Assembly: GCA_947381415.1 (NCBI GenBank)
Contig: CANCVB010000026.1
Span: 1-38,731, forward strand
DNA: 38,731 nt
Direction: 5' to 3'
From: Burkholderiales bacterium
Lineage (GTDB): Bacteria > Pseudomonadota > Gammaproteobacteria > Burkholderiales > Burkholderiaceae_C
Below the pieces are notes generated by a model, which was not told where the DNA came from, made no database searches, and worked only from the letters and a program-made list of their open reading frames with translations. Below are positions 11,299 through 35,135 of this stretch, piece by piece. Position 1 is the stretch's first letter. Each line of letters opens with the position of its first letter. The translations under genes were made by a program, and so were the position numbers.

Positions 11299-12975
11299 AT
11301 GCTCAATCTGTCCCACATCCTCCAGCGCATAGATGCTGTTCGCGTGCCCTACCCGGTGCGCTACACCACGTTTTTCATCGCCTTAGGCGGGCTGTGTTTA
11401 AGCCTGCTGGTTTTGCTCGCCGGTGGTCAGCTGTCGTGGTGGTTGCTGTTGTTTGCGCTGCTCAGTGGCCTAGGCGTGCACGATTTGCTGCAAACCCAGC
11501 ATGCTATCTTGCGCAACTACCCCATCTTGGGCCATTTGCGGTTTTTGCTCGAATTCATTCGGCCAGAAATTCGCCAATATTTCATCGAAGCTGAAAACGA
11601 AGCCGCCCCCTTCTCGCGCGCACAACGCACGCTGGTTTATGCCCGTGCCAAAGGCCAATCCGACAAACGCCCGTTTGGTACACAACTCAATGTCATGGGC
11701 GAGGGCTATGAATGGTTGACCCATTCCATGGCACCTAGCCAGATTGAAAGCCATGATTTTCGGGTGCGCGTTGGCGACAAACAAAGCAGCCAGGCGTATG
11801 ACCTGAGCGTGTTCAATATTTCCGCCATGAGCTTTGGTGCTTTAAGTGCCAATGCCATCATGGCTTTGAACCAAGGTGCACAGCTAGGTGGCTTCGCCCA
11901 TGACACGGGCGAAGGATCGATTTCGCGTTACCACCGCGTCCATGGCGGTGACTTGATTTGGGAAATTGGCTCAGGCTATTTTGGTTGCCGAGACAGCCAA
12001 GGCCGTTTTGACCCCGAGGGCTTTGCCCGTCAAGCCCTTGAGCCCCAAGTGAAGATGATCGAAATCAAACTCAGCCAAGGCGCCAAACCGGGGCACGGTG
12101 GGGTTTTACCAGCGGCCAAAATGACCGAAGAAATCGCCCAAGCGCGTGGCGTGCCACTCGACCAAGACTGTGTCTCCCCCGCCGTCCACAGCGCATTCTC
12201 AACCCCCATCGAACTGCTGGCATTTGTCGCGCAACTGCGTACTTTGAGCGGTGGCAAGCCCACGGGCTTCAAGTTTTGTGTCGGTCATCCTTGGGAATGG
12301 TTTGCCATTGTGAAGGCCATGCAAGAAACCGGCATCACACCCGACTTCATCGTCGTTGACGGTGCCGAAGGCGGCACGGGCGCAGCACCCTTGGAGTTTT
12401 CTGATCACATGGGCATGCCCATGCTTGAAGGCTTGCGCTTGGTACACAACACCTTGGTGGGTGTGGGTCTGCGCTCGCAAATTCGATTGGGCGCAAGCGG
12501 CAAAATCATCAGCAGTTTTGACATCGCTCGCGCCCTTGCGCTCGGCGCGGATTGGTGTAACAGTGCGCGCGGTTTCATGTTTGCCTTGGGCTGCATACAA
12601 GCGCAAACCTGTCACACCGGCAACTGCCCCACGGGCGTAACCACCCAAGACCCCCAGCGGCAAATGGCCTTGGTGGTGCCCAACAAAGCCCAGCGGGTGA
12701 AAAACTTTCACCAACACACCTTGGTGGCATTGCAAGAAATGTTGCAGGCAGCGGGGTTTCAAACGCCAGACCAGTTACAAGCCAAACACATCATGCGGCG
12801 TGTCAGCGCGCATGAAACAGCCTCATTGGAAGACCTGTACCCAAGCTTGACAGAAGGCAGTTTGCTGAAAAAACCCACTAAAGGCATGCCAGCGGTTTTC
12901 ACGCAATTTTGGCCTTTGGCCAGCGCCAAGCACTTTCAGCTAGAAGAACAGCTCGCGCTGGAACTCTTGCCTTAA
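11299..12975 (+). CDS. FMN-binding glutamate synthase-like protein
   Basis: A 558-residue membrane-anchored flavoprotein. AGGAGA lies seven bases before the ATG at 11299. Residues 15-70 hold two hydrophobic helices (TTFFIALGGLCLSLLVLLAGG, WWLLLFALLSGLGVHDLL). The rest is the FMN/Fe-S domain of the glutamate synthase large subunit (GltB central region): NISAMSFGALSANAIMAL, then GEGSISRYH, GAKPGHGGVLPAAK, DGAEGGTGAAPLEFSD, and a cysteine cluster in CIQAQTCHTGNCPTG. It lacks the glutaminase domain, so it is not a complete GOGAT. YerD-type homologues have no settled function. Its stop codon overlaps that of the convergent 411-residue protein in a shared TTAA (12972-12975). Confidence 0.9.
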   Translation: MLNLSHILQRIDAVRVPYPVRYTTFFIALGGLCLSLLVLLAGGQLSWWLLLFALLSGLGVHDLLQTQHAILRNYPILGHLRFLLEFIRPEIRQYFIEAENEAAPFSRAQRTLVYARAKGQSDKRPFGTQLNVMGEGYEWLTHSMAPSQIESHDFRVRVGDKQSSQAYDLSVFNISAMSFGALSANAIMALNQGAQLGGFAHDTGEGSISRYHRVHGGDLIWEIGSGYFGCRDSQGRFDPEGFARQALEPQVKMIEIKLSQGAKPGHGGVLPAAKMTEEIAQARGVPLDQDCVSPAVHSAFSTPIELLAFVAQLRTLSGGKPTGFKFCVGHPWEWFAIVKAMQETGITPDFIVVDGAEGGTGAAPLEFSDHMGMPMLEGLRLVHNTLVGVGLRSQIRLGASGKIISSFDIARALALGADWCNSARGFMFALGCIQAQTCHTGNCPTGVTTQDPQRQMALVVPNKAQRVKNFHQHTLVALQEMLQAAGFQTPDQLQAKHIMRRVSAHETASLEDLYPSLTEGSLLKKPTKGMPAVFTQFWPLASAKHFQLEEQLALELLP

Positions 12976-14207
12976 TTGTCGGTATTGGGGCGAGGGAAAA
13001 CCACCCTGTCTTCCTTGGGCGAAGCACGAGGGGGAATTGCTGGCGGCTGGGCTGCCGCTGCAGCAGCCTTGGCCTCGGCAGCGGCCTTGGCTTCAATCGC
13101 TTTGGCGCGTGCTTCGGCAGCTTTGGCTTCTGCTTTGGCCTTGGCTTCGGCGGCCTTGGCTTCTTCTGCCGCTTTGGCTTCAGCCGCTGCCTTGGTTTGG
13201 GCTTTTGCTTCAGCAGCTTTGGATTCAGCCAGTTTGGCTTCAGCCGCTTTCAGCGCCGCTGCCTTGGCCTCTGCAGCCTTGGTTTCGGGGGATTTGCCCT
13301 CGGGGGTACCCGGTAAGGTCAGCGGTGGGTTGCGCGAGGCAGCGATGGCTGCCTTTTCTGCCGCTTTTTCAGCGGCTTTTTCTTGCTCACGCGCGGCTTT
13401 GGCGGCCGCTTGGTTGGCAGCCAATGCGGCCTCCAAGTCTTTCTTGAGCTTTTGAATTTCAGCAATCACGGCTTGGTTGTTTTGCGGCGGTGCAGCGGCT
13501 GGGGCTTTGGCACTTGCCAAGGCCTGCACTTTGGCTTCTACCGCTTGAATGCTTTTTTGCAGGTTTTGCAATTTCGCATCCAGGCTTTTCTCGCTTTGAC
13601 CATTGACCTGACCAGCGATTTGATCTGGCATTTTGTTGAATAACTTGGTCAAGTCTTCCATCTTGGATTCGACTTTGCTGTCCAGCTTGATTTGGCGCTC
13701 TTCCATGCCATCGAGTTTTTCAGTGGTATCGCCCAGTCCATGGGTGGCGTCACCAAAGGCGGCCAATGTGGCGTCGAGTTCGACCACACGCTTGCCCACT
13801 GCCAACGACAGCGTGTCAAGTTGGCGAATGTTTTGTTGCAAGCGGGTAGAAATGGCAAAAAAACTTCCCACGGCAATCATTAAAAAACTGAGCAAGCCAA
13901 TGAGCATGACGCGCGAATGCAGCACATTGCGCTTACCCATCTCATCAACCTTGACCATCACATTGCGCATTTCCTCGCTGATGGTGGCAGCGACTTCCGC
14001 CGAGCGGGTAGAGACCTCTGCCGAACTGAGCACCACACCGGTGAGGTCTTCGAGTTGACGAGAGACTTCGCTGCCGTCCAATGCCTGCGATTGCAAAGTA
14101 TCGATAGCTTCGGCCAAGGCCTCACCCTCCAGCATTTCTGGCGCAGACGGCTCGGCCAAAACCGCGCCAGCTTCGGCGGTTTTTGCGTTTTCCTGTTCTT
14201 GCGCCAT
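12972..14207 (-). CDS. single-pass membrane coiled-coil protein with TolA-like Ala/Lys tail
   Basis: A 411-residue protein of no recognised family. AAGGA lies eight bases before the ATG at 14207. Residues 1-100 are acidic and helical (EGEALAEAIDTLQSQALDG). One transmembrane helix follows (VMLIGLLSFLMIAVGSFFAI, about 102-121). Then come a coiled coil (about 122-225; KVESKMEDLTKLFNK), a short Ala/Pro hinge, and a long Ala/Lys/Glu helix (about 250-385) of the KAAEAKAKAEAK type, ending in a Pro-rich tail (PPAIPPRASP). This plan resembles TolA or chemoreceptor-like stalks, but no defining domain is seen. It starts 11 nt after the acidic protein gene and is the last gene of the fliO...flhB run. Confidence 0.78.
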   Translation of the reverse strand: MAQEQENAKTAEAGAVLAEPSAPEMLEGEALAEAIDTLQSQALDGSEVSRQLEDLTGVVLSSAEVSTRSAEVAATISEEMRNVMVKVDEMGKRNVLHSRVMLIGLLSFLMIAVGSFFAISTRLQQNIRQLDTLSLAVGKRVVELDATLAAFGDATHGLGDTTEKLDGMEERQIKLDSKVESKMEDLTKLFNKMPDQIAGQVNGQSEKSLDAKLQNLQKSIQAVEAKVQALASAKAPAAAPPQNNQAVIAEIQKLKKDLEAALAANQAAAKAAREQEKAAEKAAEKAAIAASRNPPLTLPGTPEGKSPETKAAEAKAAALKAAEAKLAESKAAEAKAQTKAAAEAKAAEEAKAAEAKAKAEAKAAEARAKAIEAKAAAEAKAAAAAAQPPAIPPRASPKEDRVVFPRPNTDN

Positions 14208-14218
14208 GGCTTTTGTCC

Positions 14219-14830
14219 TTATCGGTTTTTACGTTGGGGTGTCGTCAATTGGTCAAGCCGAACATTCACTTCATCAATTTGCGCATGCAAACTGTCTATC
14301 CTCGGCTTGAACTGCTCACCCCATGTATCGGCGTCAGCCAGTCCAACTTGAGCCAAATGGGCTAAGTGCGGTTGCAAAACCAGTCCTTCTGACGACTTTT
14401 CTCCAAATGCCATCTGTTCTGACGCATGGGGGGTTTCAGCCGCAGAACCCAGCGCCGCATCCGCTAGCGCCTGGGTTTGCGCTGGGCCCAGCTGCGCATC
14501 TTTGAGCGCACCAGAGCCTGCAGCAACCAAACTTGCAGGGTCGGTATGACCATAGCTGCTTTGCGGGGCATGACCGTTTTCCGCAACGACAGACAAGTCT
14601 GGGTGTGCAGGATCCACAACCTCAGCATCCAGTGGCTGGGGTTCTGGCATGGGTTCAGGCTCAGGTTCAGGTTCGTCGGGGAAGGCGTCGGTACTCGATG
14701 CTGAGGGTATGGGGTTTGAAGGTGGCGCACTGCTGCGCTCGAACACATGTTCGCTGTCCAGCGCCTTGGCCACGGCGCTTTCATCAATGTCAGCCACAGG
14801 CTTGTCGTCAAAAGTATCTTCACTGCTCAT
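14219..14830 (-). CDS. acidic Pro/Glu-rich protein, hypothetical
   Basis: A 203-residue protein with GGAG seven bases before the ATG at 14830. It is strongly acidic and probably disordered, with a Pro-Glu stretch at about residues 54-70 (PDEPEPEPEPMPEPQP). A short predicted helix lies at the C-terminus (RIDSLHAQIDEVNVRLDQLTTP). It has no signal peptide and no membrane helix. The C-terminal helix ends near the start of the next gene (11 nt gap), and the two proteins may act together. No function can be assigned. The gene starts 61 nt after the SPOR gene stop. Confidence 0.65.
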   Translation of the reverse strand: MSSEDTFDDKPVADIDESAVAKALDSEHVFERSSAPPSNPIPSASSTDAFPDEPEPEPEPMPEPQPLDAEVVDPAHPDLSVVAENGHAPQSSYGHTDPASLVAAGSGALKDAQLGPAQTQALADAALGSAAETPHASEQMAFGEKSSEGLVLQPHLAHLAQVGLADADTWGEQFKPRIDSLHAQIDEVNVRLDQLTTPQRKNR

Positions 14831-14891
14831 TACATTTCTCCGCAGATGAAGTCGACTGGAAAACGCATAACTTGAAAGATGCTTGACATCG

Positions 14892-16364
14892 TCAGTCCTG
14901 AAACTGAGCTTTTAACGACTTTGATGTGCGCAACCAGGCTTTGGCCATGGCGGGGTTTTGTCGTATTTGAGCCTCTGCGGTGGCTTTATCGGCATAAGGA
15001 CCTGTCAAGACGATGTAGAACGACTTACTGTTCTTTCGCTGGCTAAACAAAACTTGTGCCGACTTGAACAAACTGGAGTTGGCTTGAAATGCCCTGGCCT
15101 CGGCCAAGCTATCAAAAGCCCCATGCTGCAACACCCAAGAATCGGCATCGAGTTTCACCACCCATGCGGGATCGTCTGCACCCGCGGTCTTGTCAGCCAC
15201 TGTCTCTGTGGGTTTCTCCACGGGTTTTTCTGGTTTCTTCTTCACGTCAGCAGCGGCCGGTGGAGGCGCCGTTGCAGATGCCGCTTCGGGTGGGGGTGAG
15301 GACGGCTGCGGCGCGGAAGCAGGCGCAGCCGTCACAGCAGGCGCAGGACTCACCACTTCTTCTTTTTCGCTGATCACAATATCCGGCGATTTCGGCGAAG
15401 ACGTGTTGCTTGAAGACATGGCAACGGTTGCTGCAGGCGCAGCAGCTGGTTCTGGTTTTGTGACTGCCGCTGGTTTTTTGCCCGCCAAGTACTCTTGCAA
15501 AGACGCGGCCTCCTCGCGAATCAGGTCTTGGTAGACAAACCCAAAGCTTGCCAGACTGCCAATGACCGCCACCAACAAAATAGCAGCAATTTTGGTGCCT
15601 CGCTTGGAAGCAGCGGCATTGTCAGCCCATTCTTTGGCCAATGCCTCGCCACTCAAGGTGGTGCCCACAGGCACCTCTTCACCCATGACCGGCTCGATGG
15701 GATCGGCCAAACCGGGTTCTGGCGCCACCGAGGCAGGTGCGGCTTTGGCGGCCGTCTTTTCAGAGGGCAGTTCTAGCGGCGGCAAAGGCGCTGGGGGCAA
15801 GCTAAATTTTTTGTCCAACCCAGCTGCTTGCGTTTTTTGGCTGGCTGAAAAGTCATCCCTCGTTTCGATACGCTGTGGCTTGCTTGGCGTCGGGTCTTCA
15901 GACTCCAAAACCCATTGCAACAAATTTTTACCAAAAGTGGCCAGTTTTTTCTCGTAAGCACTTTGGTTATTGACCAACAAAATCAGGTTGATATTGCTGG
16001 CGGGAAAACCATTGACCAAGCGCGCGAGCAGTTGCAACTCGAATTCTTGAATGGCCTGTGTATCTGGGAAGATCATGAAGCGCTTGGGTGCAGTTTTGTT
16101 GCCTTTGTCGACCGCTTCGTCCACCGTCAGTTCAGACAATATTTCGTTGAAGCGATCAACCAACTTTTCCGAGTCAGCAGAAGTCCATAACTCCACATGT
16201 GGCTCGCCCTGCTCTTTCAAATGCTGAAAAATGCGCCTGCCGTAATAGGTCAGCGCCACCTCATCATCGCCCAGGATGGCCAAGTTAAGTCGCCCTTCAC
16301 GCAGTGACTTGAGCAAAATTTCAAACCGTAATTTGTCTGCAGGGCTTTGGTAAAAATCACTCAT
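14892..16364 (-). CDS. SPOR-domain membrane protein, DamX-like
   Basis: A 490-residue protein. Residues 1-165 look like an AAA/DamX-type N-terminal domain that has lost its P-loop: the position reads LNLAILGDDEVALTYYGRR instead of GxxGxGKT. Residues 166-265 are Pro/Ala-rich. One transmembrane helix follows (GTKIAAILLVAVIGSLASFGFVYQ), then a disordered Pro/Ala linker and a C-terminal SPOR domain (WVLQHGAFDSLAEARAFQANS, ending YIVLTGPYADKATAEAQIR). SPOR domains bind denuded septal peptidoglycan, and DamX acts in cell division. It lies 24 nt after flhB, which ties it to the flagellar transcript. The N-terminal assignment is less sure than the SPOR one. Confidence 0.82.
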   Translation of the reverse strand: MSDFYQSPADKLRFEILLKSLREGRLNLAILGDDEVALTYYGRRIFQHLKEQGEPHVELWTSADSEKLVDRFNEILSELTVDEAVDKGNKTAPKRFMIFPDTQAIQEFELQLLARLVNGFPASNINLILLVNNQSAYEKKLATFGKNLLQWVLESEDPTPSKPQRIETRDDFSASQKTQAAGLDKKFSLPPAPLPPLELPSEKTAAKAAPASVAPEPGLADPIEPVMGEEVPVGTTLSGEALAKEWADNAAASKRGTKIAAILLVAVIGSLASFGFVYQDLIREEAASLQEYLAGKKPAAVTKPEPAAAPAATVAMSSSNTSSPKSPDIVISEKEEVVSPAPAVTAAPASAPQPSSPPPEAASATAPPPAAADVKKKPEKPVEKPTETVADKTAGADDPAWVVKLDADSWVLQHGAFDSLAEARAFQANSSLFKSAQVLFSQRKNSKSFYIVLTGPYADKATAEAQIRQNPAMAKAWLRTSKSLKAQFQD

Positions 16365-19628: not shown

Positions 19629-19661
19629 GGTTCCCCATTATCCACGCGGAAGCGTCAATTC

Positions 19662-20069
19662 ATGAAAAAACTTGATCATTCATACAAATTATTGGTTTGC
19701 TTGACTTTGCTGGCCTTGTCCTTGAGCGCAAGCGCTGCCGACTGGGTCGCTTTGGGACTCGCCGACCTGGGCACTTACGGCATCGACCGCGCCTCCATTG
19801 AAAAGGACGGCTCGCTGCGTCGCGTCTGGACCATGTTGGATTACCGTGAACCGCAAAAATCTTCCCAAGGTAAAACTTATCTCTCCAGCCGAGCGCTGAT
19901 GGAAATGGAATGCAGCAAACGCCAAGTGCGCACCCGTTCCATGGCCTTGTACAGCGGTCACAACTTGGGCGGAGAAGCACTGACCAGCGAAGGTATTTTT
20001 GACCAATGGCAGGCGGTGCCGCCACATTCGCCTGTGTTCACCATGTTCAAGGTGGTGTGTGAACACTAA
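19662..20069 (+). CDS. surface-adhesin E-like secreted protein
   Basis: A 135-residue protein with GGAAG nine bases before the ATG at 19662. Residues 1-25 are a Sec signal peptide (LLVCLTLLALSLSASA, cleavage before ADW). The mature part has a beta-rich pattern: ADWVALGLADLGTYGIDRASI, then RRVWTMLDYREPQ. Two cysteines in MECSKRQVRTRSM and the end VVCEH could form a disulphide. This matches the small surface-adhesin protein E-like family that is common and multicopy in Comamonadaceae. The role is unknown; family members occur outside flagellar clusters too. It sits on the opposite strand inside the fli cluster. Confidence 0.72.
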   Translation: MKKLDHSYKLLVCLTLLALSLSASAADWVALGLADLGTYGIDRASIEKDGSLRRVWTMLDYREPQKSSQGKTYLSSRALMEMECSKRQVRTRSMALYSGHNLGGEALTSEGIFDQWQAVPPHSPVFTMFKVVCEH

Positions 20070-21313: not shown

Positions 21314-22639
21314 TCAAGATTGGTTAAGCAACTCACGCAATTGCGCACGCGTCACGTCGTAGTCCTGGCTGATGTGCATATCTTGCCGCAAAAAATTGAC
21401 AATGCGGTCATTCAAGCGAATCGCTTCATCCAATTCTGGGTTGGAGCCATGTTCATAGGCGCCCACCTGAATCAGGTCGACATTTTGCTGGTATAGGGAC
21501 CACAGTCTGCGCAATTTATTGGACAAGCGCAAGTCTTCACTGCTCAACAAGGTTTGCATCAACCGAGAGATAGAACCGGTCAAGTCAATCGCTGGATAGT
21601 GCGCAGAGTCGGCCAGTTTGCGTGACAACATGACCTGCCCATCCAAAGAGGCACGTGCAATGTCCACGATCGGATCGGCTGCGTCATCGCCTTCAGCCAA
21701 CACAGTGTAGATGGCGGTGATCGATCCATGTCCATGCCGGCCTACGCCACCGCGTTCAATCAAATTGGGTAACAAACCAAACACCGAGGGCGGGTAACCC
21801 TTGGCGGTCGGTGGTTCGCCAATGGCCAGGCCAATTTCTCGCTGGGCATGGGCCACACGCGTCAAACTGTCACACAGCATCAGCACATCTTTACCTTGGT
21901 CACGAAAATATTCTGCGATGACATGGGTGAGGTGGGTGGCCTTTAATCGCAACACCGGCGAGACATTGGCAGGTGCCGCAACCACGACAGATTTGGCCAA
22001 ACCCTCTTCACCCAATGACTCTTGAATAAACGCTTGCACCTCGCGGCCACGCTCGCCAATCAAACCAATGATGACAATATCGGCTTTGGTAAACCGCGTG
22101 AGCATGCCCAACAACACACTTTTACCCACACCAGAGCCTGCAACCAAGCCCAGGCGTTGGCCACGACCCAAAGTGAGTATGCCGTTGATGGCCTTGACAC
22201 CGACGTCAAGTATTTTGTTGATGGGGCCGCGCTCCATGGGATTGATGGGGCGACCCAAGAGGCTGAGCAAGTCTTTGCAAACCGGCGCAGGTTTTCCGTC
22301 CAGGGGTTGGCAGCGCCCATCAATGACGCGACCTAAGAGTTCAGGACCCAAACTCACCAAAGAAGAATTGCTGACCACGCGAACCATGTCGCCTGGGCCT
22401 ACCCCTGCAGGCTCGGTGAATGGCATCAAGAACAAAACCTTGTCATTGAAACCCACCACCTCGGCCTCGACACGGTGACCATGGCGACCCACCACTTCGC
22501 AGCATGCACCCAAAGGTGCCATCACGCCACGGGCCTCTAAGGTCATACCCACCAAGCGCACCAAAGTACCGCTGCGCTGCGGTTGTGGCGTGCGCAAGCC
22601 TGAGAGGCTTTGTTCGACTTCCTGGGCAAAATCCATCAT
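21314..22639 (-). CDS. fliI: flagellum-specific ATPase FliI
   Basis: A 441-residue F1-beta-like ATPase that powers flagellar export. The Walker A motif is GSGVGKS (in RLGLVAGSGVGKSVLLGML). Other markers are GLIGERGREVQAFIQ, VLMLCDSLTRVAHAQREIGLAIGEPPTAKGYPPSVF and SLYQQNVDLIQVGAY. The N-terminal FliH-interacting domain is of normal length. Its start at 22639 follows the FliF-tail paralogue by only 3 nt, and fliJ follows at 12 nt. Confidence 0.98.
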   Translation of the reverse strand: MMDFAQEVEQSLSGLRTPQPQRSGTLVRLVGMTLEARGVMAPLGACCEVVGRHGHRVEAEVVGFNDKVLFLMPFTEPAGVGPGDMVRVVSNSSLVSLGPELLGRVIDGRCQPLDGKPAPVCKDLLSLLGRPINPMERGPINKILDVGVKAINGILTLGRGQRLGLVAGSGVGKSVLLGMLTRFTKADIVIIGLIGERGREVQAFIQESLGEEGLAKSVVVAAPANVSPVLRLKATHLTHVIAEYFRDQGKDVLMLCDSLTRVAHAQREIGLAIGEPPTAKGYPPSVFGLLPNLIERGGVGRHGHGSITAIYTVLAEGDDAADPIVDIARASLDGQVMLSRKLADSAHYPAIDLTGSISRLMQTLLSSEDLRLSNKLRRLWSLYQQNVDLIQVGAYEHGSNPELDEAIRLNDRIVNFLRQDMHISQDYDVTRAQLRELLNQS

Positions 22640-22642
22640 GGC

Positions 22643-23254
22643 TTAGGGGGTGATCTGAATCATGGATCGAATGGTATTGGCCACCCGGTTTTGTTCTTGT
22701 TCGGCAACAAAACGCACCACCATGAGTTTGTCTTCGTAGCTGTTGCCAGCCAAGAGTTCTGCGGGAATCACTGGTTTTTTCTTTTGCTTCTTCATGTTTT
22801 CACGCATTTTCTTCAACTCGTCATCGCCTTCATCTTCGACACCTGCTTCAAGGTCGGCCAACAGCTGGGCTTCGTGCGCCAAACGCTGTGCCTCCTCTTG
22901 TGCCACCAATGCGCGCCGTGCCAATTCTGCCTCGTGGCCTTTGTAACGCAAATCCATGGCCTCTTGTTGCTCGGCGAGCAGCCGTTGCTCCTCTTCACTG
23001 AGCACCACCGGGGCAGGTGCTTCAGGCGCCACTTCTTCAAGCTTGGGCAGGGCTGATTTCTCGGCGGGCTTGGGCAAATAAAAACTGGCGAATTGCTGGC
23101 GGTACGCACTGTTGACAGCGAGTTGCGCCATTTCTTCCAACTCCAAATAGTTGGGCTCGCGCCTGACCATGGACATCAGCATGGGTCTGACGACCCAGGC
23201 CAAAAAGGCCAGGCACATGAGTGTGCGCAACGCAATGTTGGTGAAATCAAGCAT
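22643..23254 (-). CDS. membrane-anchored paralogue of the FliF C-terminal (FliG-binding) tail
   Basis: A 203-residue protein encoded between fliH and fliI. Residues 6-27 form a membrane helix ending WVVRPM, which matches the FliF second helix ending FVVRPM. Residues 86-150 are a charged coiled coil (SEEEQRLLAEQQEAMDLR). Residues 157-203 align with the last residues of FliF: KKKPVIPAELL versus PKKQAIPADLL, NSYEDK versus NSYDDK, and RVANTIRSMI versus RVAGVMRGMI. The FliF N-terminal region and all periplasmic ring domains are absent. It overlaps fliH by 8 nt and lies 3 nt before fliI, so it is translationally tied to the operon. It could offer extra FliG-binding sites. Neither a truncated fliF fragment nor a known fli gene explains it. 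Confidence 0.82.
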   Translation of the reverse strand: MLDFTNIALRTLMCLAFLAWVVRPMLMSMVRREPNYLELEEMAQLAVNSAYRQQFASFYLPKPAEKSALPKLEEVAPEAPAPVVLSEEEQRLLAEQQEAMDLRYKGHEAELARRALVAQEEAQRLAHEAQLLADLEAGVEDEGDDELKKMRENMKKQKKKPVIPAELLAGNSYEDKLMVVRFVAEQEQNRVANTIRSMIQITP

Positions 23255-24485
23255 GGGTATCCCCGTCCAAAATATCGGAATCGTTATCGGTTAACGGATC
23301 TTGGTAGGTGACGCGTTCTGCGACGTCTTGCGCCTGACCTTCACGTTGCGCCAAGGGTTGACGGAAAAAGACGGATTCCTCGCGCCATGCCTCGGGTTGG
23401 GTCAACAAACTGTTGGCCAAGGTTTGCATGCGGTTTTGCACCAAATCTTCGATTTGCGTATCGTTGACCAGCACACGCACACTGCCGGGTTGCAAGCTAG
23501 AAACCGCTTGGATTTGCATTTGGCCCATCACATCGCCAGCCATTTCCTGCAAGCGCGCTTTGTCTTGGGGGTTGAGTTCAATCACCACCTGCGATTGACC
23601 GTGCAAATCGATTTCATCTAAACACCGCTGCACCAAACGCTCAATGGCTTGGCCTGAGAGATTGAGTTCAGCCAACACCATGTGTTCGCTGATATGCAAG
23701 GCCAAACGTTTCAAGGGTTCAAACAAAGCCTGTGGGTTATCGCTCAACGCCTGCAATTTGTCTGTCACTTCTTGGAGCAGCTGCTTTTGGTCATCCAGCA
23801 CAGACATGATTTCATGGCGTTGTGCATCCAAGGCTTGGGTTTGTGCCGCTTGTGCTTGCGATTGGGCAGCTTCCTGACCGTCTTTCTGGCCTTGCGTCAA
23901 ACCGACTGACTTGCCCTGGGCATGTCCTTGGGCATGACCTGCCTCATAACCTTCGGCACGGCCTGCCGCAAAACCTTCTTGGTAAGCAGCCTCACGGGCA
24001 GCAGCCCAATCGGCCGAATTAAAACGCGCATCTTCTGGGCTTTCATCACCCAGGGCGTCCCAAATATCGGGGTTGGCACTGGCCCAAAAACTTTCGTGAC
24101 CGTACAAAACCGAAGGGTCGGGCTTTTCTGTGGCCGCAACGGCTTTCGGGGGGGCTGCGACTTCAACACCTGTGTCAACTGCTTGGACGGCCAGCTCTTC
24201 AGGTTCTGGGTTTGCCACATCGCTTTTCTTTGCAGATCGCGGCGTAGGCAAGGGCGAACCAAAAGTCTCTAAAACAAAGCCATCGCTGTTGTCAAACACT
24301 TTGGCAGACTCGGGGATGGCCAATTGCTTGAACAAGACCGAGGCAAAGTCAAGTTTGGGCACTTGTGCCCAATCCACTTCACCAAACTGCGCGGTGAGTT
24401 TGTCCGACGAGTGCAACCACGTATCGTGAAGCCAATGCCTGGGTGCAGGCTGATGCGTATCGGGTTTAAACAAAATCGGCTCCAC
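23247..24485 (-). CDS. fliH: flagellar export regulator FliH, long form
   Basis: A 412-residue protein, well above the roughly 230-290 usual for FliH. It starts at GTG 24485, overlapping fliG by 20 nt; no nearby ATG is in frame. Residues 1-165 are a weakly conserved acidic/Pro region. Residues 171-203 carry the GxxxG-type repeat of FliH (GFAAGRAEGYEAGHAQGHAQ), followed by a long helix. The C-terminal V-ATPase-E-like domain has AERVTYQDPLTDNDSDI at the end. FliH dimers bind FliI and dock it at the export gate. It overlaps the FliF-tail paralogue by 8 nt. Confidence 0.88.
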   Translation of the reverse strand: MEPILFKPDTHQPAPRHWLHDTWLHSSDKLTAQFGEVDWAQVPKLDFASVLFKQLAIPESAKVFDNSDGFVLETFGSPLPTPRSAKKSDVANPEPEELAVQAVDTGVEVAAPPKAVAATEKPDPSVLYGHESFWASANPDIWDALGDESPEDARFNSADWAAAREAAYQEGFAAGRAEGYEAGHAQGHAQGKSVGLTQGQKDGQEAAQSQAQAAQTQALDAQRHEIMSVLDDQKQLLQEVTDKLQALSDNPQALFEPLKRLALHISEHMVLAELNLSGQAIERLVQRCLDEIDLHGQSQVVIELNPQDKARLQEMAGDVMGQMQIQAVSSLQPGSVRVLVNDTQIEDLVQNRMQTLANSLLTQPEAWREESVFFRQPLAQREGQAQDVAERVTYQDPLTDNDSDILDGDTHA

Positions 24486-25503
24486 CCAAGATCAATTCGC
24501 CGGTGTCCGAGAGCTTGCGTGCCAGACGCATGATTTTCTTTTGGGCGTCTTCCACATCGGCCACACGCACAGGTCCGCGTGCGTCCATGTCGTCTTTGAA
24601 CATACCGCGGGCACGTTCGGACATGTTGTCCAAGAACCGCGCCAACACCTCGTCTGGCGCACCTTTGAGTGCCACCATCAACTGATCGGGCTCGACATTG
24701 CGCATCAACACTTGGATACCTTTGTTATCGACGGTCACCAAGTTATCGAAGGTGAACATCTGGTCTTGGATTTTGAGCATCAAGTCGACGTCGAGTTCTT
24801 CCAAACCATCCATGACCGAGCGTTCCAAATCGGTTTTGGTTTTGTTCATGATGTCGGCAGCGGCTTTGATACCCCCAAAACTGGAGGACTTGGAAGAAGA
24901 GCTCTTGGCGAACTGCTGCTTCATGATTTGTTCAAGCTCGGCCATGGCGGAGGGTTGCACCGTGTCCATGCTGGCCACACGCTGAATCGCCTCTGGTCGC
25001 ACCTCTGGGGGCAGGTAGACCAACACGTCGGCAGCGACACTGGTTTCCAGCAGCGACAAAATAATGGCAATCACTTGCGGATGCTCGGTGCGAATCATCT
25101 CGGCAATCGAACGCGGATCCATCCAGCTGAGAATATCCAAGCCTTTGGTACCTTGACCAGGCATGATGCGGTTCAGTACTGAATTGGCTTTATCGTCACC
25201 CAAAGCCAAGCGCATGACTTTGTCCACATAGTCAGAGCCACCGAGTCCCACGCTGTTTTGTTTTTTCAGCATATCGACAAACTGGTCTAGCACCACGTTG
25301 ACCGCGTTTTGCGACAAGCTAGAGGCTTGCACCATGGCAGCTCCCAAAGCTTGAACTTCCTTGGGGCTGAGGTATTTCACAATCTCTGCGGCTTGTTCTT
25401 CGCCCAGCAAGAGCATCAGCACTGCAGCGCGTTGGGTGGACGTCATCGCGGCCATTTCGGCGCGCAACTCTGGTGTCCATTGAATCGAATCGTTATCAGC
25501 CAT
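24466..25503 (-). CDS. fliG: flagellar motor switch protein FliG
   Basis: A 345-residue protein from the ATG at 25503, which has AGGA six to seven bases upstream; the in-frame start at 25524 has no such site. The N-terminal domain (FliF-binding) includes TSTQRAAVLMLLLGEEQAAEIVKYLSPKEV. The middle domain has the EHPQVIAIILSLLE stretch, and the C-terminal torque domain ends FKDDMDARGPVRVADVEDAQKKIMRLARKL. The conserved charged residues for stator interaction are in DNMSERARGMFKDDMD. It lies between fliF (39 nt upstream) and fliH (20-nt overlap). Confidence 0.98.
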   Translation of the reverse strand: MADNDSIQWTPELRAEMAAMTSTQRAAVLMLLLGEEQAAEIVKYLSPKEVQALGAAMVQASSLSQNAVNVVLDQFVDMLKKQNSVGLGGSDYVDKVMRLALGDDKANSVLNRIMPGQGTKGLDILSWMDPRSIAEMIRTEHPQVIAIILSLLETSVAADVLVYLPPEVRPEAIQRVASMDTVQPSAMAELEQIMKQQFAKSSSSKSSSFGGIKAAADIMNKTKTDLERSVMDGLEELDVDLMLKIQDQMFTFDNLVTVDNKGIQVLMRNVEPDQLMVALKGAPDEVLARFLDNMSERARGMFKDDMDARGPVRVADVEDAQKKIMRLARKLSDTGELILGGADFV

Positions 25504-25542
25504 GTTGGTTCCTGGTTTTCTCAATCTTCATCAAGGTTCACA

Positions 25543-27648
25543 TCAAGTTTCGATCATGCCGCGCATCACGCCAGCCACACGGCCGGAGTTGTCTGACACG
25601 ATCATGCGAATCAGTGCGACTTTATCGTCATACGAATTGGCATTGTTAAGCAAATCGGCGGGAATGGCTTGCTTCTTGGGTTTGAGGTTGCCCATGCGTG
25701 CTTTGAGGTCTTCCAAGGTTTCACCCTCTGCAAGTTCAACATCGGTAGGCTCCTCGGCTTGCTCGCTGGCTGCGGCCAAGCGCTCGGCTTCACGCGCCGC
25801 CTCTTCTTCGGCCATGCGCACAGCTTCGGCAGCGGAGGCTTCTTCGGCCATTTGCAATTGCAAGAGTTCTTCTTCTTTGGCTCTGCGTGCATTCTCTTCG
25901 GCTTCTTCGCGGGCCATGCGTTCTTGGGTGGCTCGAACCGCCGCTTCGGCTTCGGCTGCAGCGATACGTTCTGCACGCATTTTTTCTGCACTGGCGGCTT
26001 CGGCGGAGGCTGCGGCCAAGGCGGCGGCGGCCAAGCTGGCAGGGTCGATCTCGGGTTTGTTGAGTTTCTTGATCATGGGGCGAACCACGAACAACAAGAA
26101 TGTCAGGAACAAGGCCGCAACCACACCGCTGTTGGCCAGTGAAGCCAATGCTTCGTCTTTGTACCAAGGCACGGCATCAGGGTCGATTGTTGGCTCAAAG
26201 CGGGTAGCCACCACGGTGACGACGTCGCCACGTTTGTCATTAAAGCCCACCGCACCGCGCACCAATTGGTTCAAACGGTCGAGTTCTTCTTGGGTGTAAG
26301 GAATGGTGGTGGGTGCAGGTGAACCATCGGCGGGTTTTTCCACCTTGGTCCCTGGCGGGATAGGACGTTCATTGATCAGCACGCCCACGCCCAATTTTTG
26401 GATATTGCCCATGGCGCTTTTGGTGTGGCGAACCGCACGGTCAAGCTCATAGTTCTTGGTGGAACGCGCCACCACTTGCACGCCTTTTTCACTCACGCCC
26501 TTGTTGGGATCCGCCACCGATGTTTCTGAGGATGCGGGATTTTGCGGAGGGTTGGGAGGGGTGTTGGACAACGAGCCTGGCACACCAATCGCATCCTTGA
26601 AGGAGTTGCGGTCTTCCACATACAACTCAGAGCGGGTTTTGGGGCCTTTGTCACGTTGGTCAAAGTCTTCGGTGGTGATTTCTTCTTGGGTGAAATCCAA
26701 TTGCAAGCTCACCTGTGCGCTGACATTGACCTCGCCCACGATGGGGGCCAGCAATTGAATCAAACGGGTACGGTACAGGTCTTCCATTTGTTGCTTTTGT
26801 TGCAACTGTGCACCTGTGAGACCCAAAGGCGCTTCACCCAGCATTTCGTTCATCAAGGTGCCGTAGTTGTCCACCACCGACACGTTTTCAGGCGCCAAGT
26901 AAGGCACGCTGGAAGCCACCAAGGAGATGATGGCTTGCACATTGGCCGACGACACTTGCTTGCCTGGTGCGCGGGTGATGATGACCGAGGCCTTGGTTGG
27001 TACGCGGTCGCGCACAAACACGCTTTGTTTGGGCGCAGCCAAATGCACACGGGCACTGCGGATGCCGGCAATTTGCGAGATGGTTTTGGCCAACTCTTGT
27101 TCCATGGCGTTGTTGTAACGAACCTGCTCCATGAACTGACTGGTGGTCATGGCAGGCATGTCTTTCAAGGTGTCCATGCCCTGGGCTTCGGTGCGGGGCA
27201 AACCCTTGGAAGCCAACAGCATGCGGGCTTCTTGGTATTTATCACCAGGCACCATGATTTGGCCAGTGTTGTTATCTATTTGCGGATTAAAGTTGCCTGT
27301 TTTCAAGGTCTCAATCGCCAACTGTTTATCCGCCTCTGGCAGCATCATGGTCAATGCGCGGTAGCTTGGCGTCTTCATGGACATGGAGGCCAAGCCAAAA
27401 GCCGCCACCACCATCAAGATCACGATGATGGGCAAGGCTTTTTTCACAGACGGTTGACGTACCAAATCACGCACCATGCCCATGGGGTCGCTGAGTGCGG
27501 TGTTGGCGACAGAGCGTGCCAAGTCGTTGCTTCGCAACGGCGTGCCACTTGTCACCATAGAGGTTCCTGTGCTGGAGCCGTCAGAGGTGGTCAATGCGTT
27601 GTTGCTGGTGCCCAGCGGGGTATTGAGTGTTGCGCTTGCGGTGGCCAT
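25543..27648 (-). CDS. fliF: flagellar MS-ring protein FliF, extended
   Basis: A 701-residue protein versus about 550-570 in most species. Residues 1-70 are an extended cytosolic Ser/Thr-rich N-terminus. TM1 is about 71-90 and TM2 about 506-525 (ALFLTFLLFVVRPM). The periplasmic ring-building regions lie between (RTEAQGMDTLKDM..., RIQLLAPIVGEVNVSAQVSL). Residues about 536-640 are an Ala/Glu/Arg-rich predicted coiled coil not usual in FliF. Residues 655-701 are the FliG-binding tail (KKQAIPADLL, NSYDDK, RVAGVMRGMIET). It starts 17 nt after fliE. The extra tail length matches the unusual FliF-tail paralogue in the same operon. Confidence 0.97.
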   Translation of the reverse strand: MATASATLNTPLGTSNNALTTSDGSSTGTSMVTSGTPLRSNDLARSVANTALSDPMGMVRDLVRQPSVKKALPIIVILMVVAAFGLASMSMKTPSYRALTMMLPEADKQLAIETLKTGNFNPQIDNNTGQIMVPGDKYQEARMLLASKGLPRTEAQGMDTLKDMPAMTTSQFMEQVRYNNAMEQELAKTISQIAGIRSARVHLAAPKQSVFVRDRVPTKASVIITRAPGKQVSSANVQAIISLVASSVPYLAPENVSVVDNYGTLMNEMLGEAPLGLTGAQLQQKQQMEDLYRTRLIQLLAPIVGEVNVSAQVSLQLDFTQEEITTEDFDQRDKGPKTRSELYVEDRNSFKDAIGVPGSLSNTPPNPPQNPASSETSVADPNKGVSEKGVQVVARSTKNYELDRAVRHTKSAMGNIQKLGVGVLINERPIPPGTKVEKPADGSPAPTTIPYTQEELDRLNQLVRGAVGFNDKRGDVVTVVATRFEPTIDPDAVPWYKDEALASLANSGVVAALFLTFLLFVVRPMIKKLNKPEIDPASLAAAALAAASAEAASAEKMRAERIAAAEAEAAVRATQERMAREEAEENARRAKEEELLQLQMAEEASAAEAVRMAEEEAAREAERLAAASEQAEEPTDVELAEGETLEDLKARMGNLKPKKQAIPADLLNNANSYDDKVALIRMIVSDNSGRVAGVMRGMIET

Positions 27649-29960: not shown

Positions 29961-32900
29961 TCAACCACCCAGTAATTTCAAGACCGACTGTTGGCTGGTG
30001 TTGGCTTGGGCCAGCACCGCTGTCGCGGCTTGCTGCATGATTTGCGTCTTGGCCAATTCGGTGGATGCCGAAGCGTAATCTGCGTCTTCGATCTGGCTGC
30101 GCGATGCAGACATGTTCATAGACACATTGGTCAAGTTGTTGATCACATGGTCGAGACGGTTCATCACCGCACCCATGGTCGCTCGGGTGGCATTGACCTT
30201 GTCCATCGCCTCATCCAACAGGTTGAGCACAGCGGTCGCGCCGTCTCGGGTGTTGATGCGCACGGCACGGTTTTCTACCGCCTGATCCACGTCGCCAGTG
30301 ATTTCACCAGTGATGGGACCGCCTTTACCGAAATCGGCCAAATCGATGGTGACCATCTGACGGGCAGACGAGCCCACTTGGAAAGCCAGTCGGCCAACCC
30401 GAGGAGGATCCATGTCTGAGCTTGAACGTCCGCCAAAACTGCCGACAGAGAAACCCAAATCTGCAAAGTTACTGGCGGAGCCGAAGCCGTCATCACCGGT
30501 TTTGATGGTGATGGGTTTGCCAGAGATTCCCGTCAAGTTTGGTGCTTTGCCGTCCGTGCCGGGCAAAGCAGGCAATTGGGCGGGTGTGGCAATCAGGCGT
30601 ACCGTGCCATAGACGGTTCGGGCATCTGTGGAGTTTTCGCTGGCGGCCACGATACCGGTGATTTGGTTGCTGCCAAAACTGTTGTCGCGCAATGTGCCAA
30701 TGGACAAGGTTTGGTCCGAGCCTGTGTTCAAGGCCGCCGCACCCAACATCACAAAAGGTGAACCAGGCACTTTGGATTGCACCAACACCGAGGTGGCATC
30801 GTTAGGGTCGATGTAAGCAATCAAGTTGCTTAAATGGGTGCGATCAGACGGAGGGGTGGTCGAATCCGCGTCCAAAGCCACACTGGCAGCGATCGCGGAA
30901 TTGATGGCGGTCATCATGGCTGTAGCCATGCCTGCCGGTGTCTGCATATCTGTTGTTGGATCGGTGGTGATGGTGGTGCCGTTGATGTTGACAGACAGCG
31001 TATCGCCTACAGCAATAGTACTACCGCCCATCTTCACCTTGGAAATTTGGCTTTCTGAATTGCCTTCTTCCAAACCAAAGCTGGCTGGTGACAGGCCTTC
31101 AATGCTGGCGTCGTACCAGACAGACACGTTGCGGCCATCGGGAGCTTCCAAGGTCAAGCCCTTGCCATTGTCGGTGGCCACAATGCCGTGGGTGCCAGAG
31201 TAGGTGTTGATGGCCCGAACCAAATTGATTCGACGGTCTGAGGGGGTGTCATCCGCCTTGAATTCCACCTTGATTTCGGTGCCATTCAGGTACAGCGACT
31301 GGAAACCTTCAGGTTGGTTAACCGCCTTCACGTTGTTGGGTGGCGCGTCCCTGGTTTCAAGTTTGGTCGATCCTGTCGAGGTGTGACCACCTTTCAACAC
31401 CACGGGATTGGCAATCGCACGCACACCTGTTTCAGAGCTGTGGGTATTGATGGCATGGGCCATGGCGATGGCACTGGCTGCAGGGTTGCTGCTGCTGGCC
31501 ACTTGGTTGGAGTCGATGTCGTCGGCTGAATTGGTGGCGCGAATTTTCACACCATTGATCTCCAAGTCATCGGTACCCAATGATTTGAAAGGCGAAATTT
31601 TGTTTTCAACTTCAACCTGAACCGCAGATATATCGGCGGTAGGCGGGTCTGCCGCAGGAACCATGGCTGTTGCGGCAGTGAAAGAACGCCCAGCGGTTTT
31701 GGCGCGGATGATCAATTCACCCACGGTATTGCCTTTGAGCACTTCCACGTTTTGGTCGTTGTCGAGCTCCGCAACCATCAGGTCACGCAACTCTTGGGCG
31801 CTTTCGCCACCAGTAGCGGTAATGGTGTGTTCTTCACCGTTGACCACCAAGGTGAATTTGTCATCGGCAGTGGCAGGACCCGTGAAAGTCAAACTGCTGA
31901 CTTGCTTGACAGCGGGGTCCACCAAAGGACGTTCCTTGGTATTGAAGACCGCCTGGTTTTTGCTGTAGTTGCCCTCAAGGAAACCCACGCGTGAAATGTC
32001 GCCCACGGCCGAGCTGGTCAAGACCACCGCGTTGGGAATCTTGGATTCCAACGAAATCGTGGCGCTTTGCACACCTTCACGCATACCAATGCGGTTGCCA
32101 AATTCTTTGGCAGTGGCCGTGGTTTCAAAAGTCACTTCGATGTTGCGACCGTCTGCAGCCGTCAGCGTGACACCCAGCAAATCTGAGCCGGTATCTACCG
32201 CTTTCACGCCTGTTTTGTCGCTGATGAGGTTGATGGCGCGAACCACATTGGCACGGGTATCGCGGGGGTTGTTCATCAAGGTTTCAATTTTTGCCGAGGC
32301 TACGCCGTTGACAAACACCACACCCGAGACGACGGAATTACCGCTCATGGACTTACCCGTGAAGATGTTCTCATTCACTTTGGCAAACACGCCAGTACCG
32401 CTGGACGATGAACTGAAACGGCGGGTGGTGTCCGTCACGCTGGCCAAATTGGTGTCGCGCTGCTGCACATCAATGGCACTGACTTCGCCATCGGTGACGG
32501 GAAAGTCGACATTGATCACAGTGCTGCCTGGGGCATACGACACGGTGCGGCCTGAGCCTTCACCAAACTGTGCACTGGTGCGCATCGCTTGCGCAATTTT
32601 GGCGGTAGCCAATGCGGGCGTGTTGTCCATGGCCGTGAGTTCAACACTCACACCACCGACGGTGATGACACCTGGGATGGGGTTGCCAGAGAAAGTCACA
32701 GACTGCGACTCACCCACGGGGCCTGAACCTACCGCGGCTTTGCGGTTGATCGCTGCTGCCTTGGCAATCGCCGAACCGGCTGCGTTGTTGATGGGAGAGA
32801 ACGGGTCATCGACTGCAAAAGAGCCGCCAATTTCAACGCCGTTGATGAGCAAGTCGCCTGCACGCATGGCAGGGATGCTGCCAGAGACGTCAATCGACAA

Positions 32901-34112
32901 TTTAAAGTGTCTGTCAAGCAAGTCGTTGGTGAAATCGCCGTTTGCATTGGCATTGCTGCCGTCAAACACCGAGCTGACCGAGTCTTTCAAGAAGTATGTC
33001 AGGTTGTCAGAGATGACCGAGCTGTTGATGCCTTGTTTGGCGTCAAAGGTAACCGTGCCTTTGGTGGAATCGAAACTGCCCACCAAATTCACACTTTTGT
33101 TATCGGGGGTGACAAACGTGGCCTTGATGTCACGGGTGCCATCGTTGTTGGTGTCGACATGCTCGATCACCAGGTTGCCGCTGCGCAGAAAACGGCCGTT
33201 GTTGTCAAATTTTTCTTGGGTCTGTGTAATCGCATCGCGACTGACCACGACGGGGTCCAGCACAAAATACCCATCATTGGATTTGTCTGTCAATTGGATG
33301 TCATGCACATCGCCGTCATTGGCGGAATAGGTGATGACGAGTTGATTGGTTGCGCCATCGACCGCCACGGTGCGGCCAGAGCCCGCGCCAAATTGTTCGG
33401 TCGCTTGCAATTGCGTCTGAATTTGGGCGGCCAACTTGGCAGGGTCAACGGCACCGCTGCCGTCATTGATGTCATTCCATTCCAAGCTGATGTTTTCGCC
33501 TGCAAATTTGAAAGTGCGTTTATCGGCGAAACCATCGCTGGGAATGCCAGTGGTATTGATAGACACCACTTGTTGCTCACCCGAACCAGCGCCTTCAATG
33601 ACACGGGTGGTGGTGGGGCTTAACAAAACATTGCCAAAAGCGTCGTTCGAGGTGGCTTTGTAAACAGGCATTTCACCGACTTGTTCACCAGCCTTGCCGT
33701 TCAACACAGGGAAACCGTTCCACTCGGTGTTGTCAGCAATCTGCACAATTTGTTGTTTGAGCTGCTGAAACTCCAAGTCGAGGTAGCTGCGTTGGGCGCT
33801 GTCGTTGGTGTCGTTGACCGCCTGGATCGCCAACTCACGCATGCGTTGCATCATGTCGGTGATTTCGTTGGTTGCACCCTCAGCGGTTTGAATCAAGGAG
33901 ATGGCGTCACCCGCATTGCGCACGGCTTGGTTCAAGCTGCGTATTTGATGCGTCATCCGTGTGGCAATGGCCATACCGGCGGCATCGTCTCGTGCAGAGT
34001 TGATGCGCTTGCCTGTCGACAATTGCTGCATGGCTGTGCTTTGCGCAAGGCCCGTGTTTTTTAAAGCCATCTGTGAGAACAGCGCTTTGACGTTGGTGTT
34101 AATTACTGCCAT
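29961..34112 (-). CDS. fliC: giant flagellin
   Basis: A 1383-residue flagellin, about three to five times the usual 270-500. AGGAGA five bases before the ATG at 34112 fixes the start; an in-frame start at 34139 is not used. The N-terminal D0/D1 region (about 1-145) is MAVINTNVKALFSQMALKN, then TGKRINSARDDAAGMAIATRM and LDLEFQQLKQQI. The C-terminal D1/D0 region (about 1285-1383) includes MGAVMNRLDHVINNL and ASTELAKTQIMQQAATAVLAQANTS. Between them lie more than 1100 residues of surface domains. At least three to four resemble Flagellin_IN hairpins, and there are two related GSGRTV-containing segments (near 241 and 514). A sigma-54 promoter precedes it. A terminator hairpin is not visible. Confidence 0.95.
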   Translation of the reverse strand: MAVINTNVKALFSQMALKNTGLAQSTAMQQLSTGKRINSARDDAAGMAIATRMTHQIRSLNQAVRNAGDAISLIQTAEGATNEITDMMQRMRELAIQAVNDTNDSAQRSYLDLEFQQLKQQIVQIADNTEWNGFPVLNGKAGEQVGEMPVYKATSNDAFGNVLLSPTTTRVIEGAGSGEQQVVSINTTGIPSDGFADKRTFKFAGENISLEWNDINDGSGAVDPAKLAAQIQTQLQATEQFGAGSGRTVAVDGATNQLVITYSANDGDVHDIQLTDKSNDGYFVLDPVVVSRDAITQTQEKFDNNGRFLRSGNLVIEHVDTNNDGTRDIKATFVTPDNKSVNLVGSFDSTKGTVTFDAKQGINSSVISDNLTYFLKDSVSSVFDGSNANANGDFTNDLLDRHFKLSIDVSGSIPAMRAGDLLINGVEIGGSFAVDDPFSPINNAAGSAIAKAAAINRKAAVGSGPVGESQSVTFSGNPIPGVITVGGVSVELTAMDNTPALATAKIAQAMRTSAQFGEGSGRTVSYAPGSTVINVDFPVTDGEVSAIDVQQRDTNLASVTDTTRRFSSSSSGTGVFAKVNENIFTGKSMSGNSVVSGVVFVNGVASAKIETLMNNPRDTRANVVRAINLISDKTGVKAVDTGSDLLGVTLTAADGRNIEVTFETTATAKEFGNRIGMREGVQSATISLESKIPNAVVLTSSAVGDISRVGFLEGNYSKNQAVFNTKERPLVDPAVKQVSSLTFTGPATADDKFTLVVNGEEHTITATGGESAQELRDLMVAELDNDQNVEVLKGNTVGELIIRAKTAGRSFTAATAMVPAADPPTADISAVQVEVENKISPFKSLGTDDLEINGVKIRATNSADDIDSNQVASSSNPAASAIAMAHAINTHSSETGVRAIANPVVLKGGHTSTGSTKLETRDAPPNNVKAVNQPEGFQSLYLNGTEIKVEFKADDTPSDRRINLVRAINTYSGTHGIVATDNGKGLTLEAPDGRNVSVWYDASIEGLSPASFGLEEGNSESQISKVKMGGSTIAVGDTLSVNINGTTITTDPTTDMQTPAGMATAMMTAINSAIAASVALDADSTTPPSDRTHLSNLIAYIDPNDATSVLVQSKVPGSPFVMLGAAALNTGSDQTLSIGTLRDNSFGSNQITGIVAASENSTDARTVYGTVRLIATPAQLPALPGTDGKAPNLTGISGKPITIKTGDDGFGSASNFADLGFSVGSFGGRSSSDMDPPRVGRLAFQVGSSARQMVTIDLADFGKGGPITGEITGDVDQAVENRAVRINTRDGATAVLNLLDEAMDKVNATRATMGAVMNRLDHVINNLTNVSMNMSASRSQIEDADYASASTELAKTQIMQQAATAVLAQANTSQQSVLKLLGG

Positions 34113-34157
34113 TTTTCTCTCCTGACCTTTCTTGGTCAATCAAACTTGCAACTGACT

Positions 34158-34866: not shown

Positions 34867-34883
34867 CCCGTTAAAAGCGCATG

Positions 34884-34918
34884 TTTTTGCCGCCAAGGCC
34901 GAGGACAAGCGGCAAAAA
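34884..34918. repeat. inverted repeat between divergent sigma-54 promoters, candidate activator site
   Basis: Perfect 10-bp arms TTTTTGCCGC (34884-34893) and GCGGCAAAAA (34909-34918) flank a 15-nt spacer. The inner TTGCCGC and GCGGCAA are the same half-sites as in the repeat at 34279-34302. It is centred about 60 bp upstream of the TPR-gene start and about 220 bp upstream of the predicted plus-strand start. Arm order (T-tract outside on the left, A-tract on the right) is the reverse of an intrinsic terminator. Confidence 0.6.
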
Positions 34919-35092
34919 ATCGCCAATTCATACACCTAAAGAATCTTTAATTTATAGAAAAGAGCCTAAAAGAGTTCAAAAGAAGATGGCAAAGTTTTGT
35001 TCGGTTTTTTCTTCCATGGCGACTCAAGCTTTGTGGTTTCAGGCCGAAACACATAAGACCAGCCATAAGCCCATGCCTCGTGTATGTGCGAA

Positions 35093-35109
35093 TTGGCGCA
35101 AAGAACGCA
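35093..35109 (+). promoter_or_regulatory. candidate sigma-54 promoter of the octapeptide-repeat gene
   Basis: TTGGCGCAAAGAACGCA has GG (35095-35096) and GC (35107-35108) with exactly 10 nt between them. TGGCGC and ACGCA differ from consensus TGGCAC and TTGCA at a few positions, so it is weaker than the other sites. The predicted start, about 35120, would leave a very short leader before the ATG at 35136. Confidence 0.45.
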
Positions 35110-35135
35110 ATGGATACAACTTTCAAAGGCCAACC

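Follow-up and report, generated by a model that had tools for sequence, protein, structure and literature searches.

In a freshwater genus of the Burkholderiales, the flagellar operon encodes a small membrane protein, here called X, that by its sequence is a FliF-derived protein cut down to the second transmembrane (TM2) helix, the linker, and the FliG-binding tail. The reading toward which the evidence leans is that X acts as an auxiliary rotor subunit that docks FliG in the same ring as FliF, which suggests a second type of FliG-ring docking site in the motor of this genus.

The gene and its operon

Gene X occupies positions 22,643 to 23,254 on the minus strand of the window, i.e. the whole stretch of 38,731 nucleotides that was analyzed, and is defined by its open reading frame, its homology to the FliF tail, and its conservation in the genus. 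A preliminary description made from the DNA letters had proposed a product of 203 residues at this place, and the frame was confirmed, with ATG as the start codon. The protein is composed of three parts, all encoded on the minus strand. Residues 2–36 (23,147 to 23,251) comprise a single TM helix that resembles FliF TM2 and ends in VVRPM, as delimited by AlphaFold2 (AF2), hydropathy, and dN/dS. Residues 37–151 (22,802 to 23,146) make up a charged, mostly helical linker that is defined by dN/dS, AF2, and the linker lengths, and residues 152–203 (22,646 to 22,801) harbor the FliG-binding tail motif (IPAELL, NSYEDK, and RVANTIRSMI), which is recognized by homology, dN/dS, and AF2. The helix end WVVRPM and the tail motifs shared with the FliF of the same operon read exactly as first quoted.

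The genes on the minus strand follow the order fliE, fliF, fliG, fliH, X, fliI, and fliJ. Both spacings that had been given for X hold: it overlaps fliH (23,247 to 24,485, minus strand) by 8 nt and lies 3 nt upstream of fliI (21,314 to 22,639, minus strand). Beyond fliJ, an Adhesin_E gene and a further plus-strand ORF are followed by fliO, fliP, fliQ, fliR, and flhB, while fliK, fliL, fliM, and fliN sit on a separate contig with flhA adjoining. The genes fliF (25,543 to 27,648, minus strand; 701 aa, with a tail of its own) and fliG (24,466 to 25,524, minus strand) encode the only FliF and the only FliG found in the genome. Since the genome has one of each, both tails face the same FliG, which is the presumed partner of the two. 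FliH ORFs vary widely in length, from 284 aa in a locus outside the genus (L107) to 722 aa in one inside it (L066), with some starts possibly set too early.

Relationship to FliF

The likeness of the X C terminus to the tail of its own-operon FliF was recovered by BLASTP at 40% over 62 aa (E = 3e-9), and a whole-genome search aligned residues 6–200 of X to FliF at E = 9.7e-11. A comparison of the C-terminal part of X with FliF had been set beforehand as a refutation test. The match was significant (hhalign, 99.5% probability, E = 2.5e-22), with X 136–202 aligned to the end of FliF, when a profile built from 42 of the 56 X proteins of the genus (A1) was compared with a profile of 13 FliFs (A4), none of which comes from the genus. 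A control with 2000 shuffles gave the same picture. X against its own FliF, from TM2 to the end, scored 167 (shuffled X 51 ± 8, maximum 96), and with the FliF of L108, a locus outside the genus, the score was 108 (shuffled 34 ± 6, maximum 60). The TM segment by itself reached a score of 46, compared with 32 at the top 1% of shuffles. Chance similarity within the charged coil is ruled out by these shuffles together with the profile comparison with FliFs from outside the genus.

The two signature regions of FliF are retained. The VRP signature, which was read off the FliFs of this analysis with that of Escherichia coli included, is present in X with an invariant P24 and with V22 and R23 in at least 90% of the 42 rows of the profile. 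The tail consensus of the 56 X proteins (tipPelLnnaNSYEDKlmVVRmvvqqdQsRVAsvIrsMIq) can be laid beside that of FliF (sIsADLLntANsYDDKVALIRMIvaedStRVAgVlknlIe), which was taken from 40 of the genus's 50 FliFs after the sequences whose tail contains a short insert had been set aside. The two periplasmic FliF domains PF01514 (YscJ_FliF) and PF08345 (YscJ_FliF_C) are both present in the FliF of the window and were not found in X, as the preliminary description had held for the ring regions.

No Pfam family matched X above the cut-off (best E = 0.55, CHIP_TPR_N), and no NCBIfam model matched the X of the window up to E = 0.1; a known family under another name is thereby ruled out. A search of the A1 profile against solved structures returned chance matches only (best E = 0.4), and FliF–FliG structures were not among them. 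A close relative of X (83%) is carried by a metagenome-assembled genome (L017).

Conservation and selection

X is matched in 70 of 84 genomes of the genus and FliG_N in 62. A free-standing X frame is present in all 62 FliG-bearing genomes. For 55 of them (the window plus 54 more) the locus was read; the remaining seven rest on listed open frames of 164–271 aa, in the shortest of which (in G331) the match is confined to the tail. None of the 14 genomes that lack an X match has a FliG match either. Eight genomes show an X match without a FliG match, and seven of them are less than 90% complete. G351, which makes up the eight, has a listed completeness of 100%; its X match, like that of G314, lies at a contig start in a frame of about 120 aa and could be a cut FliF. 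The co-occurrence of X and FliG is significant when kinship is ignored (Fisher p = 1e-10). A second, divergent FliG occurs in two members of the genus (G333:C44 and G362:C118).

The position of the gene is equally stable. All 56 loci that were read, which comprise the window plus 55 relatives selected for matching X, have X between fliH and fliI as an open frame with an ATG start, the overlap with fliH is 8, 14, or 17 nt, and the distance to fliI ranges from −4 to +18 nt. In each of the 12 loci from outside the genus that hold both genes, fliH lies directly next to fliI or overlaps it.

The TM helix and the tail of X are under strong purifying selection. Among 13 genome pairs of the genus, dN/dS was 0–0.06 for the tail in all 13 and for the TM part in 12 of the 13 where it was defined, and 0.06–0.25 where defined for the middle part, the sequence of which changes fast; these values come from short segments, and synonymous changes are saturated in some pairs. 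The comparison values, where defined, were 0.009–0.17 for fliF, 0–0.05 for fliG, and 0.009–0.026 for fliI. It could be argued that X is the decaying remnant of a duplicated fliF, as it is derived from fliF and is shorter. Selection on the TM helix and the tail, however, means that X is not debris, no frameshifted or stopped copy was found in the 56 loci, and X accompanies FliG in every genome that bears it, being found in none of the 14 genomes that lack both. These observations rule the decaying fragment out and leave it a negligible probability. The initial view of X as an integral member of the operon thus stands, and its presence throughout the FliG-bearing relatives, which had been named as a check, was borne out.

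The same distribution bears on the idea that X is a competitor of FliF that occupies FliG and thereby limits the assembly of the C-ring or the number of flagella. A free tail anchored in the membrane would compete with FliF for FliG. A pure inhibitor, however, would more likely be regulated apart and sometimes be lost, whereas X overlaps fliH in the operon and has been kept alongside FliG throughout the genus, which renders the competitor improbable.

Predicted structure and topology

The AF2 model on the A1 alignment consists of extended helices (mean pLDDT 77.9, pTM 0.32) that span residues 2–31, 36–59, 87–138, 144–156, 166–169, 173–186, and 188–199. The membrane helix (pLDDT 87–97 in the blocks of residues 1–30) and the long helix 87–138 are predicted with confidence, while residues 61–80 are not confidently modeled. 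The tail, which includes helices 173–186 and 188–199, is modeled with intermediate confidence (pLDDT 50–73 by block), and this would fit a segment that folds on binding. X has one strongly hydrophobic region, in which 19-residue windows above 1.6 start at positions 4, 11, and 12. Because of the FliF topology and the basic residues that follow the helix, X is expected to have its TM helix in the inner membrane and its C terminus in the cytoplasm.

Linker lengths of X and FliF

The linker was measured from the end of the last TM helix, determined by hydropathy, to the YxDK motif in 56 genomes that comprise 50 of the 56 genus loci and six genomes of other families; six genus loci in which FliF or FliG is missing or cut were left out. 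The FliF linkers range from 90 to 201 aa and those of X and its counterparts from 93 to 182 aa, with 146 aa for FliF and 150 aa for X in the window. In the family f47, the free-standing tail protein has a linker of 93 aa and FliF one of 90 aa. Where no second tail was found, the FliF linker measures 63–76 aa in all eight genomes measured. An exception among the genomes without a clear second tail is G728 of the family f18, which has a FliF with a linker of 121 aa and only a weak second match of 103 aa.

Across the 56 genomes, the linker lengths of X and FliF are correlated (Spearman 0.71). Contrasts on a FliG tree gave r = 0.72, a value that was reached in none of 20,000 sign flips, and the two lengths changed with the same sign in 33 of 42 non-zero contrasts. 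Within the genus alone the correlation was r = 0.63 (p = 0.0003, 24 of 34 signs). Control pairs in the genus were weaker: the length of FliH correlated with the X linker at r = 0.28 (p = 0.05) and with the FliF linker at r = 0.40 (p = 0.0004), and the X linker correlated with the rest of FliF at r = −0.17 (raw Spearman −0.58). The link between the X and FliF linkers is thus the strongest of the six pairs, with FliH sharing some of it. Since FliH length also tracks the linkers, part of the signal may reflect a general length trend of the operon. With a cruder first measure of the linkers, no raw correlation was seen in X clade 1 (rho 0.15, n = 27), and rho was 0.67 in clade 2 (n = 23).

A match in linker length is expected of two tails that start from one membrane and have to reach one and the same FliG layer, and the data therefore favor a place for X in the same FliG ring as FliF. 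They also bear on the main alternative, in which X is an assembly factor that binds FliG at the membrane, either to pass it on to the MS-ring as this grows or to keep it at the site of assembly, and is absent from the finished rotor. Such a factor could use the same contact between tail and FliG, and the overlap of fliH with X implies coupled production. A transient holder, on the other hand, would have no obvious need for a linker that tracks that of FliF, and no chaperone-like domain was found in X by Pfam or NCBIfam. The assembly factor is therefore considered unlikely, yet it deserves to be kept in mind.

Free-standing tails in other families and their origin

Free-standing membrane proteins with a FliF tail are also found in three other Burkholderiales families, f18, f47, and f19. 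Those of f18 (in G522, G617, G646, G674, G702, and G752) are 255–398 aa long and show at least two hydrophobic segments on visual inspection. At all six f18 loci, the stretch read around the tail gene yielded no fli gene, as might hold for an assembly factor. The f47 protein (in G635) has 156 aa, carries VVRP, and is encoded between fliF and fliG (L119). The f19 protein (in G703) has 283 aa and is encoded in a stretch with fliO–flhB. Searches of G703 (81% complete) and G702 (85% complete) yielded neither a FliF nor a FliG. An 84-aa frame in G037 was rejected as a free-standing tail, as it is the end of that genome's own FliF at a contig start.

These gene positions are also informative with respect to a link between the C-ring and the export ATPase complex (FliH/FliI), which could be provided by X. 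The evidence for such a link is the position of the gene between fliH and fliI in all loci read from the genus. Against it, the comparable proteins of the other families are encoded between fliF and fliG (L119) or in stretches in which no fliH or fliI was read, and X has no Pfam match to the FliH, FliI, or FliJ families. The export link is accordingly given little credence.

In a tree of 116 tails, which was built from 66 columns (few for this number of rows), all 54 distinct X tails from the genus fall on one side of a branch with a support of 100/99, which fits a single origin within the genus. Seven free-standing tails of other families are in the tree, and the five from f18 cluster with FliF tails of that family, forming two sets (97/89 and 92/79). 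The f47 tail has a weakly supported place beside a FliF from another genome (86/67), and the branch of the f19 tail is very long, so that both placements are unsure. As the f18 tails group with FliFs of their own family, the free-standing design probably arose more than once, although the same tree could result from tails that are kept alike by a shared FliG.

Database searches returned 674 relatives of X at E ≤ 0.001, and among the 120 listed, those that bear a name are called "hypothetical protein" or, once, "ribonuclease D." Eight relatives were found for the f47 protein and 73 for one f18 protein. Many of the latter carry PF08345 or match over a small part, and several full proteins of the f18 type were among the 20 relatives read. 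For some relatives of the f47 protein and of the f18 protein, the sources give the name "flagellar M-ring protein." The A1 profile matched 18 of 399 genomes of the family and 12 of 399 of the order, A3 matched 22 of 399 genomes of the order, and the single X sequence matched 13 of 299 genomes of the family; these searches mostly miss FliFs with ordinary tails, and the counts are thus no proof of absence elsewhere.

Genes in the neighborhood

The Adhesin_E gene between fliJ and fliO in the window (19,629 to 20,069, plus strand) is present in 29 of the 56 genus loci. A profile search also placed Adhesin_E-like genes beside free-standing tail genes (L115 11,309 to 11,788; L116 2917 to 3366; L117 8273 to 8719; and L118 9187 to 9666), and those of L117 and L118 were confirmed by Pfam. 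The association is not strict, since an Adhesin_E gene also occurs in L127, where no free-standing tail was found.

The neighbor of one f18 tail gene (L112 10,628 to 11,224) is homologous to the N-terminal part of the L141 9135 to 10,361 product (38%, E = 4e-28), which is encoded beside fliN in the genome of the window and is fused to a carbonic anhydrase domain. After flhB, the minus strand of the window (12,972 to 16,364) encodes a SPOR-domain protein (490 aa), a 203-aa protein, and a 411-aa protein. Relatives of the SPOR-domain protein and the 411-aa protein adjoin the FliF-tail gene of G703 (L118), and a relative of the 411-aa protein is also found in L129, which has no second tail. Further along, the window encodes a flagellin of 1392 aa (29,961 to 34,139, minus strand) with normal N- and C-terminal domains and a very large middle part, as well as a long protein built from short ALTTAQVQALSSEQI-type repeats (34,881 to 38,731, plus strand) that runs off the window end.

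Proposed role of X

The preferred reading, in which X is an auxiliary rotor subunit, can be laid out as a series of steps. X would have originated when part of fliF was copied. Its one TM helix, which is related to TM2 of FliF, would anchor it in the inner membrane, from where the tail would dock some of the FliG subunits of the ring that is docked by FliF. Binding of FliG by X is predicted from the likeness of the two tails. If X docks FliG in the ring of FliF, FliG need not match FliF one to one. The number of FliG subunits in the C-ring could then exceed that of the FliF tails, or vacant sites would be filled, and X would add membrane anchorage.

A wider proposal is put forward more tentatively. 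Several Burkholderiales lineages may independently have freed the FliF tail to obtain dedicated FliG-docking membrane subunits. Their rotors would contain two kinds of FliG anchor per ring, the size of the C-ring would be uncoupled from the number of FliFs, and the two linkers would have grown in length jointly so as to span the distance to a FliG ring that is wider or lies lower. If such proteins arose repeatedly, the release of the FliF tail may be a general way in which motors alter their rotor.

Comparison with known systems

How the copy numbers of the MS-ring and the C-ring are matched has long been debated, and X bears on this question. No second or free-standing FliF piece, and no gene intervening between fliH and fliI, appeared among the literature matches listed (titles and abstract starts, with subscription papers mostly outside the scope). 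With FliF, X shares the C-terminal part, i.e. the VVRP signature of TM2, the helical linker, and the FliG-binding tail. It differs from FliF in that it has neither the N-terminal TM helix nor the ring-building periplasmic domains and is encoded by a separate gene beside an intact fliF.

The tail of FliF is described as its FliG-binding element (PMC11087270, PMC7355467), and FliF514–560 has been docked with FliG D1 (PMC11087270). In a review, the cofolding of the FliF tail with FliG is said to ensure the matching of the rings (PMC7355467). For Salmonella, a ring of 33 FliF with 34 FliG has been proposed, and it was argued that the ratio is not necessarily 1:1 (PMC11087270). Salmonella FliF–FliG fusions and the 33:34 rings agree with the proposed role of X in that they indicate that FliF and FliG need not be 1:1 and that their contact affects the size of the C-ring (PMC7355467, PMC11087270). 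A second docking protein, by contrast, is not described in the portions available of these two sources. A natural second membrane protein that bears the tail would give the motor an inherent means of breaking the match between FliF and FliG.

FlgV of the Campylobacterota is, like X, a small accessory protein of the inner membrane. It is located at the junction of the MS-ring and the C-ring in some lineages, where it is associated with FliF and lies near the FliG N-domain (PMC10655999). The two proteins differ in their build, which was compared by description. FlgV carries a GFFxG motif and is predicted to span the membrane with two helices, its modeled contact with FliF is made via the TM helices, and it forms a 21-fold ring beside a 39-fold C-ring (PMC10655999). 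The GFFxG motif is absent from the X translation, and neither hydropathy nor AF2 showed a second TM helix in X, which instead combines one TM helix with a tail of the FliF type. FlgV, as described in that source, provides a precedent for an accessory membrane ring at the junction of the MS-ring and the C-ring (PMC10655999).
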